Shown piece after piece: positions 18,454 through 22,989 of a stretch of 36,358 bases of DNA. The notes beneath the pieces were generated by a model. That model was not told the DNA's origin and did no database searches. It was given only the letters and a program-made list of their open reading frames with translations. The stretch is from Erythrobacteraceae bacterium (GTDB lineage: Bacteria; Pseudomonadota; Alphaproteobacteria; Sphingomonadales; Sphingomonadaceae), in the NCBI GenBank assembly GCA_024642545.1, contig JAHEAW010000011.1, positions 1 to 36,358 on the forward strand, written 5' to 3'. The position numbers were made by a program, and so were the translations under genes. Every line of letters starts with the position of its first letter. Position 1 is the first letter of the stretch.

Positions 18454-19509
18454 TTATTCGCCGTCAGCCAGTCCATGCTTCTTGATACAATGGCGCAGCT
18501 GATCATAGCTAAGGCCGAGCGCCTTGGCAGTCTGGCGCTGGTTCCAGCGGTGCTTGCCCAGCGCATATTCGACAATCATCCGCTCATGCGCCTCAACCGC
18601 GCCTTTCAAATCGTCAACTCTTTCCAGATCGGGCATGATAGGCTGCGCAGCAGCCTGGTCTTGCGCCGCCGCTGGCATGCGCTTGCGTGCCGCCGGTTCG
18701 AACGGTTTCCAAGGGCTGTCGAACGGGTCGAAAACCAGATGCCCAATTGGATCTTCCCAATTGTCCCACCGGTAAACCCCGCGTTCAACCACATTGCGCA
18801 ATTCGCGGACGTTGCCCGGCCAGGGGTGTTCTTCCAATTGGCGTGCGACATTTTCGGCAAAGCCGGGCCAGCGGTCCCAGCCAATCTCTGCCGCCATCCG
18901 CCGCCCGAAATATTCGGCCAGAACGCCGATGTCACCTTCGCGCACGCGTAACGGCGGCAGAGTAATGACTTCAAAACTCAGCCGGTCGAGCAGATCGGAA
19001 CGGAATTGCCCTTCATCAGCCAGCCGCGGTAAATCCTCATTCGTGGCGGCGACAATCCGCACATCGACGCTGATCGGACGCGAGGAGCCGATTCGCGTGA
19101 CCTCGCCATATTCGACCGCGCGCAGAAGCCTTTCCTGCGCGCCCATCGACAATGTGCCCAGTTCATCGAGAAATAGCGTGCCTTTGTCGGCTTCTTCAAA
19201 TCTTCCCACCCGCGCTTTGGTAGCCCCAGTGAACGCGCCGGCTTCATGGCCGAACAGCTCCGCTTCAATCAGCGTTTCAGGAAGGGCGGCACAGTTCATG
19301 ATTACCAGTGGTTCCCCCCAGCGCGGTGACAGACGGTGCAAGCGTTCAGCGATCAGTTCCTTGCCGGTTCCGCGCTCGCCCACCACCAGAACAGGGCGTC
19401 GCATCGGGGCAGCACGGCTGGCACGCTCCACCGCATCAAGGAAGGCCCCGGATTGGCCAATAAACTGGTTTTCCCGCTCCACAGCCCAACCTATAGGGAA
19501 TTTCCCCAT
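18454..19509 (-). CDS. pspF: Sigma-54-dependent phage shock protein operon activator
   Basis: GERGTGKELIAERLHRLSPRW, GAFTGA, TLFLDELGTLS, WPGNVRELRNVVERGVYRW, C-terminal Fis HTH; divergent from pspA. The start may alternatively be GTG 19482. Confidence 0.94.
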   Translation of the reverse strand: MGKFPIGWAVERENQFIGQSGAFLDAVERASRAAPMRRPVLVVGERGTGKELIAERLHRLSPRWGEPLVIMNCAALPETLIEAELFGHEAGAFTGATKARVGRFEEADKGTLFLDELGTLSMGAQERLLRAVEYGEVTRIGSSRPISVDVRIVAATNEDLPRLADEGQFRSDLLDRLSFEVITLPPLRVREGDIGVLAEYFGRRMAAEIGWDRWPGFAENVARQLEEHPWPGNVRELRNVVERGVYRWDNWEDPIGHLVFDPFDSPWKPFEPAARKRMPAAAQDQAAAQPIMPDLERVDDLKGAVEAHERMIVEYALGKHRWNQRQTAKALGLSYDQLRHCIKKHGLADGE

Positions 19510-19583
19510 ATGTTGGCAATAGAAACCAAATTTCCTTCGCTGGGCCTTTACAAATGTGCAGGTATTTGGCCATTTTTGTAAAT

Positions 19584-19599
19584 TGGCACGCTCCTTGCT
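19584..19599 (+). promoter_or_regulatory. Sigma-54 (-24/-12) promoter of the psp operon
   Basis: TGGCACG-N4-TTGCT, matching the RpoN consensus TGGCACG-N4-TTGC(A/T), between divergent pspF and the psp genes. Confidence 0.9.
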
Positions 19600-19635: not shown

Positions 19636-19788
19636 ATGTATAGTCGCCGCTTCTTTCAGACCAAAGTGGGTCAGGCAGCTGCTGCCAGCATCCTGGCGAT
19701 GGTGGCATTTGTGGCCCTGACCACGCAGATGCAGGCTACCCCTGCCTTTGCAGCCACGATGCATTGTGAAACTGTGGAACTCGCATGA
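19636..19788 (+). CDS. 50-aa membrane/secreted small protein, first gene of the psp operon
   Basis: Manual translation MYSRRFFQTKVGQAAAASILAMVAFVALTTQMQATPAFAATMHCETVELA*; hydrophobic core with AFA-A cleavage-like site; 37 nt downstream of the -12 element; TGA overlaps the next ATG. Below the ORF-track size cutoff. Confidence 0.65.
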   Translation: MYSRRFFQTKVGQAAAASILAMVAFVALTTQMQATPAFAATMHCETVELA

Positions 19789-20000
19789 GCGATCCGTTTG
19801 ACACCACCCCTCTTGGGCCGGAGCGTTCATCTCCCCCCGATGCCTCAGCCCCCTCTGGCGCTTCGGCCCGCCCCCTTGGCCAGGCCCGCGGATCGCGCTT
19901 CGAAAGCGAAGTCGAACGGTTGCGCCAAAGCCCCACCCCAACGCAAACGGGCCGCAGCAGCCATTCCACTGCCGAATTCAACTTCACCGGAGTACCCCTG

Positions 20001-20687
20001 ATGGGAATTTTCAGCCGCACACGTGACATTATCGCCGCCAACTTCAACGATATGCTCGACAAGGCGGATGACCCGGCGAAAATGATCCGGATGATTATCC
20101 TCGAAATGGAGGAAACGCTGGTCGAAGTCCGCGCCAGTGCTGCCCGCACGATTGCCGATCAGAAGGAAATGCACCGCCATACGGTCAAACTGGACCGGTT
20201 ACAGGCCGATTGGGGCGAAAAGGCCCAGCTCGCCCTGTCAAAGGATCGGGAAGATCTGGCCCGGGCTGCACTGGTTGAAAAGAAGAAGGCCAGCGACATG
20301 GCTGACCAACTAAAAGCCGAAATCACGGTGCTCGACGATGCGCTGCGGGCCTATGAGCAGGACATCAACAAGCTTCAGAACCGCCTTCGCGAAGCACGCA
20401 GCCGTCAGACCGCCATCGCCGCGCGGCTCGAAAGCGCTGAGAACCGCGTCAAACTGCGCACGCTGATGAGCACCGAACGCACTGACGAAGCACTCGCCCG
20501 GTTCGACCAACTGGAACGCCGAGTCGATTATGCAGAAGGGCGCGCCGATGCGCTGAGCATTGCCGATGGCAGCGGCAAGCCAACCTTGTCGGACGAAATC
20601 GCCGCCCTGGCGGGTGCTGACAAGATCGACGAAGAACTCGAAGCAATGAAGGCTGCCATGGGCGGCAAAGACACAAAGGACCAATAG
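20001..20687 (+). CDS. pspA: Phage shock protein A (PspA/IM30)
   Basis: MGIFSRTRDIIAANFNDMLDKADDPAKMIRMIILEMEETLVEVRA is the canonical PspA N-terminus; GGAG Shine-Dalgarno 8 nt upstream. The frame stays open upstream to ATG 19785. Confidence 0.95.
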   Translation: MGIFSRTRDIIAANFNDMLDKADDPAKMIRMIILEMEETLVEVRASAARTIADQKEMHRHTVKLDRLQADWGEKAQLALSKDREDLARAALVEKKKASDMADQLKAEITVLDDALRAYEQDINKLQNRLREARSRQTAIAARLESAENRVKLRTLMSTERTDEALARFDQLERRVDYAEGRADALSIADGSGKPTLSDEIAALAGADKIDEELEAMKAAMGGKDTKDQ

Positions 20688-20690
20688 AGC

Positions 20691-20987
20691 ATGGACGAAT
20701 CAATTTTCATCGTACCGGTGATTTTCATCGGCCTGCCGTGGATCATCTTCCATTATATCACCAAGTGGAAAACCGCTGCCACCATCACCAACGATGACGA
20801 ACATTTGCTGGACGAGCTCTATCATCTCGCCCGCCGTCTCGACGAACGGATGGATACGGTTGAACGTTTGGTCGCGTCGGACAACCCTGACTTCAAACCG
20901 ACCCGACTGATGCATGACCGCGAAATTGACAATCAGCCGCTGCGCGAACTCGATCGCCTGCTGGCCGAGAAAAAGGGAGCCAAGTGA
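20691..20987 (+). CDS. pspB: Envelope stress response membrane protein PspB
   Basis: N-terminal TM then LYHLARRLDERMDTVERLVASDNPDFK coiled coil; between pspA and pspC. Confidence 0.88.
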   Translation: MDESIFIVPVIFIGLPWIIFHYITKWKTAATITNDDEHLLDELYHLARRLDERMDTVERLVASDNPDFKPTRLMHDREIDNQPLRELDRLLAEKKGAK

Positions 20988-21361
20988 TGACCAGCGAACG
21001 CACAACCCTTTATCGCGACAAGCAGAACGGCAAACTGCTCGGCGTTTGCGCTGGAATTGCCGATTACACTGGGGTCGATGCCCTGTGGGTGCGACTGGGG
21101 GCGATTGTGCTCGCTTTCAGCACCGGAATCGCGATCCCGGCCTATTTCGTGTTCGGCATGCTGCTGGGCAAGAAACCTGCCCACCTCTACGTCGAACCGG
21201 AAGAGCAGAAATACTGGCAGCGTGTGCGCCAGTCCCCTGCCCGCACCGCCCGCGAAGTGCGCGCCCGGTTCCGCGATATTGATCGCCGCCTGGCCGATGT
21301 CGAAACCTATTACGTCACCAGCAATCCGCGCCTTTCGGCAGAGATCGAACGGCTGCGCTGA
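20987..21361 (+). CDS. pspC: Envelope stress response membrane protein PspC
   Basis: LYRDKQNGKLLGVCAGIADYTGVDALWVRLGAIVLAFSTGIAIPAYFVFGMLLGKKP PspC domain. Confidence 0.93.
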   Translation: MTSERTTLYRDKQNGKLLGVCAGIADYTGVDALWVRLGAIVLAFSTGIAIPAYFVFGMLLGKKPAHLYVEPEEQKYWQRVRQSPARTAREVRARFRDIDRRLADVETYYVTSNPRLSAEIERLR

Positions 21362-21387
21362 CCGCAAACTGAGGGATTAAGTACGAA

Positions 21388-21696
21388 ATGGAAAATCTAA
21401 CCGACATGCTGGCAGTATCGATGCCATTTCTGATGGTGCTCGGGATCGTGTGGATCAAAAGCCGCAACAAGCTGGAAGAAAGGCGGATCACCGCTACTGC
21501 CGAACACAGTGCCGAAAAGGCCGCGCAATACGCCGCGCATACCGCTGAACTGGAAAAGCGAGTGCAGGTGCTCGAACGGATCGTGACCGACCGCGGCTAT
21601 GACATCGCGACCCAGATTGAGGCGTTGCGCGATAGCCGCGCGGTTGAAGGCGATAGCGGCGTTCCGTTCAATATGCCGAGGAAGGAAAACGTCTGA
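21388..21696 (+). CDS. PspB-like small TM/coiled-coil protein, copy 1
   Basis: N-terminal TM (SMPFLMVLGIVWI) and ELEKRVQVLERIVTDRGYDIATQIEALR; in psp operon. Confidence 0.8.
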   Translation: MENLTDMLAVSMPFLMVLGIVWIKSRNKLEERRITATAEHSAEKAAQYAAHTAELEKRVQVLERIVTDRGYDIATQIEALRDSRAVEGDSGVPFNMPRKENV

Positions 21697-21998
21697 TGGG
21701 CGAACTGGCCATTATCTTCGGGTTTATCCTGATCGTCAGTTTCGGGGCGTTTGCTCTGGGCCTTACGATCCACAAGCGCGACCTGGCCTTCAAACAGCGC
21801 AAGCTGGAACTGGAAGCGGTTCGGACAGGGGCGGATAGTGCCGCATCAGCCAGGAAGATCGAGCAGCTGGAACAGCGGGTGCGCGTATTGGAACGGCTCG
21901 CAACCGACCGCGGGCAGGATCTGGCGCTGCAGATCGAGGAGTTGCGCCGAACTTCGGACGAGGCGCTGGAGTTTGACCGGACGGAGGACGTGCAATGA
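21696..21998 (+). CDS. PspB-like small TM/coiled-coil protein, copy 2
   Basis: N-terminal TM and QLEQRVRVLERLATDRGQDLALQIEELR; TGATG overlap with the preceding gene. Confidence 0.8.
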   Translation: MGELAIIFGFILIVSFGAFALGLTIHKRDLAFKQRKLELEAVRTGADSAASARKIEQLEQRVRVLERLATDRGQDLALQIEELRRTSDEALEFDRTEDVQ

Positions 21999-22270
21999 GC
22001 TGGCCTGTCGCAATTGTGCTGATCGTGCTGATTTCTGCGATGGCAAAACTGATCCGGTCCCGGCACCGGGTGGAGCATGGGGTGATCCGGGATCGCTACG
22101 GCGCGGAAAGCCCTTCGGTCTCCTACAAGGAGCAAGCGCTCCAACGCGAAGTTGAGGATTTGCGCGAGCGGATCAAGGTGCTCGAGCGGATCACCACCGA
22201 CGCCAACAGCACCAACGAGCGGCATTCCAAAGCTATCGCCGATGAAATTGAAAGTCTCCGCGGGCAATAA
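21995..22270 (+). CDS. PspB-like small TM/coiled-coil protein, copy 3
   Basis: N-terminal TM (VAIVLIVLISAMAKL) and DLRERIKVLERITTDANSTNERHSKAIADEIESLR; ATGA overlap. Confidence 0.8.
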   Translation: MSWPVAIVLIVLISAMAKLIRSRHRVEHGVIRDRYGAESPSVSYKEQALQREVEDLRERIKVLERITTDANSTNERHSKAIADEIESLRGQ

Positions 22271-22315
22271 CCCCGCCCCATCATCTGAACCACGGTTCGC
22301 AAGGAGGACCGGATC

Positions 22316-22555
22316 ATGAGCGAACAGATTATCATTGCGGCCACCGCGTTTGCCGGTCTGGGACTGGTAGCACTGATTGCCCTGCGCGGATGGCAGGGCT
22401 GGCTGACCCTGAAAGAACACGAGCTGGACCGGAGCGCCAACCGTTTCGCCGAGATCGAGCAAGGCCCGGGTAGCGGCGCTGCCCGGATCGAGATTGCCGA
22501 CCTCAAGGAACGGATCCGCAAGCTGGAGGCCATCGCCAATGGGGTAGACCTCTGA
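22316..22555 (+). CDS. PspB-like small TM/coiled-coil protein, copy 4 (most divergent)
   Basis: N-terminal TM (IIIAATAFAGLGLVALIAL) and DLKERIRKLEAIANGVDL; strong AAGGAGG SD. Confidence 0.75.
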   Translation: MSEQIIIAATAFAGLGLVALIALRGWQGWLTLKEHELDRSANRFAEIEQGPGSGAARIEIADLKERIRKLEAIANGVDL

Positions 22556-22581: not shown

Positions 22582-22989
22582 ATGCGAACCATTGCCGACA
22601 TTGCTGAAGAATATGACTTCCTCGAAGGTGACGAGCGCTACCGCCTGCTGATCGAGCTTGGCCGCGAGCTTGATGATATGCCCGATGCGCTCAAAACCGA
22701 TGCCACGTTGGTGCGCGGATGTTCCGCCAGCGTGTGGGTCTATCCTACCGGAGACACGGACAAGCTGCATTTTCTGGCTGATAGTAACGCCGCCATCACC
22801 AAAGGCATCGTCGCGCTGGTCATTGCCGCTGTGCAGGACCGCCCGGCCGCAGAAGTTGCCGCGATGGACATCACTGCAGCACTCGCGCCATTTGATCTGA
22901 GGAACCAGCTCAGCTCCAACCGCACCCAAGGCGTTCCAAACATGATTGCGCTGGTGTGCGAGCATGCAGCAAGGCTTGCTGATGCCTAG
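22582..22989 (+). CDS. sufE: SufE family Fe-S cluster assembly protein
   Basis: DIAEEYDFLEGDERYRLLIELGREL and LVRGCSASVWVYP (catalytic Cys) motifs. Confidence 0.93.
   Translation: MRTIADIAEEYDFLEGDERYRLLIELGRELDDMPDALKTDATLVRGCSASVWVYPTGDTDKLHFLADSNAAITKGIVALVIAAVQDRPAAEVAAMDITAALAPFDLRNQLSSNRTQGVPNMIALVCEHAARLADA

Follow-up and report, generated by a model that had tools for sequence, protein, structure and literature searches.

The psp locus and its appended genes

The window, that is, the whole stretch of 36,358 nucleotides analysed here, from an Erythrobacteraceae bacterium (contig JAHEAW010000011.1), carries a psp locus consisting of a divergent pspF, a sigma-54 promoter match, a leader ORF, pspA, pspB, pspC, an array of four small genes (c1 to c4), and a sufE-like gene, in the following order:

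18454–19509, − strand: pspF, sigma-54 activator, divergent (Pfam Sigma54_activat 9e-61, plus HTH_8)
19583–19599, + strand: match to a sigma-54 (−24/−12) promoter in the sequence, TTGGCAC-GCTCC-TTGCT
19636–19788, + strand: leader ORF, 50 aa, hydrophobic and conserved, between promoter and pspA
19785–20687, + strand: pspA; canonical start ATG 20001, preceded in frame by a conserved N-terminal extension of 72 codons
20691–20987, + strand: pspB (TIGR02976 90.3 bits, cut-off 51.7; PF06667 6e-20)
20987–21361, + strand: pspC (TIGR02978 123.6 bits, cut-off 104; PF04024 2.5e-18), with a conserved C-terminal module at its end
21388–21696, + strand: c1, array gene 1, 102 aa; PspB-like span and helix, PspC-tail-like module (TIGR02976 7e-4; TIGR02978 tail 5e-3)
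21696–21998, + strand: c2, array gene 2, 100 aa (tblastn to c1 8.6e-9; group profile to c1 99.6%)
21995–22270, + strand: c3, array gene 3, 91 aa (group profile to c1 98.6%, to gammaproteobacterial PspB 91% over 26 columns)
22316–22555, + strand: c4, final array gene, 79 aa; conserved (S/N)GV(D/E)L end
22582–22989, + strand: sufE-like gene, array boundary (PF02657 6e-33)

The pspA product exceeds the cut-off of TIGR02977 (276 bits over residues 73–292), and pspC starts at the ATG at 20987, with a GTG also present at 20984. A preliminary description of this DNA had placed four consecutive ORFs of 79–102 aa after pspA-pspB-pspC; all are intact and lie at the positions claimed, and the motifs quoted from them are exact (LEKRVQVLERIVTD in c1, LEQRVRVLERLATD in c2, LRERIKVLERITTD in c3, LKERIRKLEAIANG in c4, and DERMDTVERLVASD in PspB). 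It counted three tight or overlapping junctions; among the four ORFs two overlap, c1–c2 (TGATG) and c2–c3 (ATGA), and c3 and c4 are separated by a 45-nt gap, which contains an AGGAGG ribosome-binding site. A further 26 nt lie between pspC and c1, and an Rfam search of the region returned no match. Compared with relatives, the array genes of the window have a pS of 0.47–0.80 and a pN of 0.10–0.43 overall (c1 0.12–0.25, c4 0.10–0.22, c2 0.21–0.36, c3 0.27–0.43). As pN lies well under pS, c1–c4 are under purifying selection and are not chance ORFs. The sufE-like gene is probably not part of the system, and we read it as the boundary of the array since it directly follows pspC in other families of the order, which have no array (L024, L026, L029).

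The gene order and the promoter match make it likely that the array is co-transcribed and co-regulated with the psp operon from the PspF-dependent promoter. In almost every related locus pspF and pspA are transcribed divergently, and 64 of 74 loci have a −24/−12 match in the 800 nt preceding pspA, compared to 8 of 300 shuffled sequences. Array loci combine gene overlaps with a near-absence of internal sigma-54 sites, only three matches being present within 125 kb of array sequence, and on its coding strand the window has only weak terminator-like hairpins, located within genes.

Two elements at the head of the operon have their own conservation. The leader ORF (19636–19788) is present in 62 of 80 loci. 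It shares an ATGA with the extended frame of pspA and has a pN of 0.07–0.15 against a pS of 0.48–0.73 among near relatives; it matches no Pfam or NCBIfam model. The pspA extension (19785–20000, 72 codons) is open in frame in 60 of 62 related loci, has a pN of 0.20–0.26 against a pS of 0.51–0.66, and retains E(V/I)ERLR.(S/T)PTPT in 37 of 38 sequences, and so looks like real protein. Given this conservation and the ribosome-binding site that precedes the canonical ATG at 20001, two forms of PspA may be made, one with its membrane-binding N-terminus covered.

Spread, order, and age of the array

Searching the GTDB species genomes with c1 yielded 80 loci, all with psp genes alongside and all from the Erythrobacter/sphingomonad lineage where the record was named that finely. 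The pspC-to-sufE stretch could be delimited in 77 of these, the window included, a set biased toward complete arrays by its discovery through c1 and its requirement for sufE. Within it, arrays hold three to eight members (median 5), which we assigned to eight working orthologue groups, namely, c1, b, g, c2, d2, e, c3, and c4. Of 793 ordered pairs, 777 follow the order c1-b-g-(c2/d2/e)-c3-c4; the final member is c4 in 77/77 loci, and 225 of 306 junctions overlap, by 1 nt in 165 and by 4 nt in 60. In a phylogenetic tree, c1, g, c3, c4, and e are each recovered as a clade spanning genera (support 0.97–1.0); c2 and d2 are not separated and b is unsupported, and the group names are therefore working labels. 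The window genome, with four members, has fewer than most relatives. Groups b and g are absent from its assembly, and g is present in 68 of the 77 loci.

A fairer measure of distribution than the loci found through c1 is a search of the order with the c4 profile, which detected c4 in 132 of 139 sampled genomes of the window's family and in 0 of 62 sampled genomes from other families of the order. Twenty more loci, from other genera of the window's family, hold similarly composed arrays. The array is real, ordered, old, and family-wide, not a local curiosity. A recent local amplification is ruled out, most groups being ancient orthologues kept in order across the family.

The final array gene also occurs in a second setting. 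In two genera (g232 and g241), pspA-pspB-pspC and part of the array remain in the main operon without c4, which is located elsewhere, in a pspA2-pspC2-c4 operon without pspB (L247–L250, L216) or with pspC2 alone (L210/L251, L211). This gene context connects c4 with PspC and PspA without recourse to sequence similarity.

Kinship with PspB and PspC

The profiles of groups c1, b, g, c2, d2, e, and c3 match one another at hhalign probabilities of 95–99.9%, compared to at most 10% for the reversed profiles used as controls. FtsB from related genomes, a single span followed by a coiled coil, reaches about 11% or less against the array groups, which are without profile similarity to this FtsB/DivIC type of protein. 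The c4 profile is weaker (95% to c2, 78% to c3, 4% to c1). Judged by these profiles, c1–c4 are homologous to one another, c4 less clearly so.

The profile of the local (Erythrobacteraceae) PspB has no similarity to the array (5% or less), and the link to PspB needed, and depends on the choice of, a gammaproteobacterial PspB profile, to which c1 matches at 92% (63 columns), c3 at 91% (26 columns), c2 at 78%, c4 at 72% (14 columns), d2 at 66%, e at 59%, b at 55%, and g at 9%, the controls giving 11% (FtsB) and about 3% or less (reversed). Of 18,950 NCBIfam models, the c1 group matches PspB best (29/29 members at E ≤ 0.01, best 1.4e-7) and the tail of the PspC model TIGR02978 second best (29/29 at E ≤ 0.01, best 4.7e-4). 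For groups b and g the best match is the PspC tail (12/40 at E ≤ 0.01, best 4.7e-5), and few members of the remaining groups match either model. No copy in the window reaches the PspB cut-off, c1 scoring 15.6 bits (PF06667, cut-off 25.6) and 19.8 bits (TIGR02976, cut-off 51.7) and c2–c4 scoring below c1 or not matching, nor does any reach the PspC cut-off. Searches of solved structures with PspB and c1 gave chance coiled-coil matches only. These comparisons indicate a significant, though below-cut-off, relationship of c1 to PspB, and link c2–c4 to PspB weakly or through the array.

The C-terminal tails point toward PspC. Aligned with a profile of the PspC C-terminal domain (PspC-CT) built from 40 PspCs outside the family, the tails of six of the eight groups match over 30–35 columns at 66–95%, compared to 15–21 columns at 14–88% with PspB-CT, and the controls are imperfect (g against reversed PspC-CT 37%, FtsB against PspB-CT 39%). 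The c3 tail fails against PspC-CT (19%, reversed 25%); c3 and c4 are without the PspC C-terminal module, the tail of c4 being different and shorter. Since most tails align longer with PspC-CT than with PspB, the array members are not simply extra PspBs. Most groups keep the tail motif R..LER..TD and EI..LR almost unchanged.

Two bridging proteins from outside the window's family illustrate this relation. One, from another alphaproteobacterial family, is an 80-aa single-span protein encoded directly 3′ of pspC and ending DDIDRRVAGIERYVTSPEFGLNRQFRDL; it matches the PspC model alone (positions 82–121, 1.1e-6) and is followed by a second PspB (3.4e-11). The other, a gammaproteobacterial orphan of 79 aa, has matches to PspB (2.2e-10) as well as to the PspC tail (3.2e-6).

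Compared with PspB of the enterobacterial pspABCDE operon (PF06667, TIGR02976), the array proteins are similar in size, in their one N-terminal span, in a charged helix with an R(I/V)..LE motif, and in their place in a PspF/sigma-54 operon, and the profile similarity of the c1 group is significant. They differ in that they fall below the family cut-off, form several diverged copies, mostly end like PspC-CT, and lack the LDAE.PNWR end of PspB, in place of which stands VTD....L..EIE.LR, or GVDL in c4. With the C-terminal domain of PspC (TIGR02978, about 70–121), six groups share an R(L/V)..(M/L)E..VT(S/D)....L..EI..L module of 30–35 columns; unlike PspC, they carry this tail on a single-span anchor, the N-terminal PspC domain (PF04024) has no match in c1–c4, and per-sequence similarity is weak. 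PspD and PspG are likewise small accessory membrane proteins of the PspF regulon, and no model of either matches the array (for PspD, none among the matches up to E = 1).

Duplicated PspB in psp operons is already known, and the array is partly anticipated by Ravi et al. 2024 (PMC11237479), who report PspC fused with a divergent PspB domain, and also PspB duplicates in the pspFABC operon (example AOL22920.1). Common to both studies are the PspB duplicates in the operon and a PspC tail related to PspB. The accessible text of that paper gives the duplicates one sentence, without copy number, ordered orthologue groups, family-wide spread, or a c4-PspC2 operon. In view of the tail alignments, the bridging proteins, and Ravi et al. 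2024, the array is best read as a PspB-domain family, most members of which would have a tail of the PspC-CT type. The amplified PspB-like family of the preliminary description survived profile comparison among the copies and with PspB, which found matches, and is half right. The copies are true paralogues related to PspB; the below-cut-off scores, the c4–PspB match of 14 columns, and the PspC-CT-like tails count against the rest, and "PspB-like anchor with PspC-tail-like module" fits better.

Other duplicate arrangements were observed in L228 (4326–4814), L229 (4566–5052), and L234 (4360–4817). In an alphaproteobacterial family, pspA-B-C continues into genes for a single-span PspC-tail protein and another PspB; in a gammaproteobacterium, two PspBs lie side by side. 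Small single-span orphans, paired or single, occur outside psp operons in L232 (3971–4517), L233 (3994–4224), and L230 (4230–4709), from gammaproteobacteria and another alphaproteobacterial family; they adjoin unrelated housekeeping or transport genes and match PspB and the PspC tail, the second one of L230 hardly.

Possible roles in the PspB–PspC–PspA switch

As proposed earlier, hydropathy and K/R counts indicate a single N-terminal span followed by a helix in all four copies. K/R residues lie almost exclusively after the span, an N-out/C-in charge pattern, and from this count we infer single-span proteins whose helix is cytoplasmic. AlphaFold monomer models are of modest to low confidence, with one helix at residues 3–85 in c1 (pLDDT 72, pTM 0.34) and a pTM of 0.26 for PspC; they were not used in a fold search, which a single helix makes meaningless.

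We lean, with some reserve, toward c1–c4 being additional, non-equivalent partners in the PspB–PspC–PspA switch. They would constitute an old tandem family with a PspB-like anchor and helix and, in most groups, an end module homologous to PspC-CT, produced together with PspA, PspB, and PspC from the PspF/sigma-54 promoter. Their helices may pair with PspC or PspB, or give extra docking sites for PspA at the membrane, and several membrane spans could thereby act on a single PspA/PspF output. In Yersinia, Flores-Kim and Darwin in 2015 reportedly found that PspC-CT touches PspB-CT when the system is off and PspA when it is on. Proteins with PspB-like helices, PspC-CT-like tails, and an N-out/C-in pattern would most simply enter this exchange among PspC-CT, PspB-CT, and PspA. 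PspB binds both itself and PspC, PspC in turn binds PspA, and psp is induced when PspBC is overproduced (PMC3068692); PspB, PspC, and PspA also join a mislocalised multimeric secretin (PMC5596341). Counting against a role as switch partners, the PspB–PspC contact in E. coli is independent of the PspB leucine-zipper residues tested (PMC3068692). The most probable function of c4, which accompanies a second PspC in an operon devoid of pspB, is to partner PspC as PspB does, possibly standing in for PspB.

The array proteins might instead be stress effectors without a part in signalling, small membrane proteins produced upon induction that would lend stability to the inner membrane or occupy secretins that are mislocalised. 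PspBC protect against secretins independently of regulation (PMC5596341), and secretins are encoded in the window genome and its relatives; yet a near-invariant switch-type tail motif in most groups exceeds the need of a bulk effector, and c4 accompanies PspC2 and PspA2, and we consider this role unlikely. Slightly less likely still, they are dampers, their PspC-tail-like modules competing with PspC for PspA or PspB and ending the induced response. Expression from the very operon that they would control, and PspC-CT-like tails without a PspC domain, would suit such a function, for which three to eight diverged, ordered copies are nonetheless more than a simple decoy requires. That the resemblance to Psp proteins is generic coiled coil, and that the genes hitch-hike between pspC and sufE, we regard as highly improbable, although the sequences are short, helical, and charged and have other weak matches to coiled-coil and transposase models. 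Reversed, shuffled, and FtsB controls fall far under the true scores, PspB is the best NCBIfam match of the c1 group, and linkage to pspC is family-wide and accompanied by split operons. It is at c1 that the generic reading is largely refuted; the same does not hold for c4.

The reading as switch partners suggests an operon expansion in which the stress sensor evolved several alternative partners in this lineage. A more speculative extension, possible but on balance doubtful, is a combinatorial sensor, a multi-input hub in place of the two-protein PspBC switch. Several dedicated adaptors with one span, each equipped with a membrane segment of its own and a module of the PspB or PspC-tail type, would serve one PspF/PspA output, and in some genera c4, PspC2, and PspA2 would make up a second module free of pspB. 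Research on how PspBC detects stress and draws PspA off PspF has been confined almost entirely to enterobacteria with a single PspB. Three to eight diverged PspB/PspC-tail-like paralogues in one family represent ready-made separations of the switch functions and could help separate which tail binds PspA and which span senses what; natural genomes with an array member and a second PspC, and without PspB, bear on whether PspB is replaceable.

The C-termini show two short conserved peptides, each a possible docking motif. G(V/I)PL occurs in the tails of 71 of 82 c1 and 23 of 35 b sequences. We claim no link between the GVPL of these tails and pspA, since the GVPL just before the canonical PspA start coincides with the ribosome-binding site GGAG. 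The second peptide, (S/N)GV(D/E)L, ends c4 in 76 of 77 loci.
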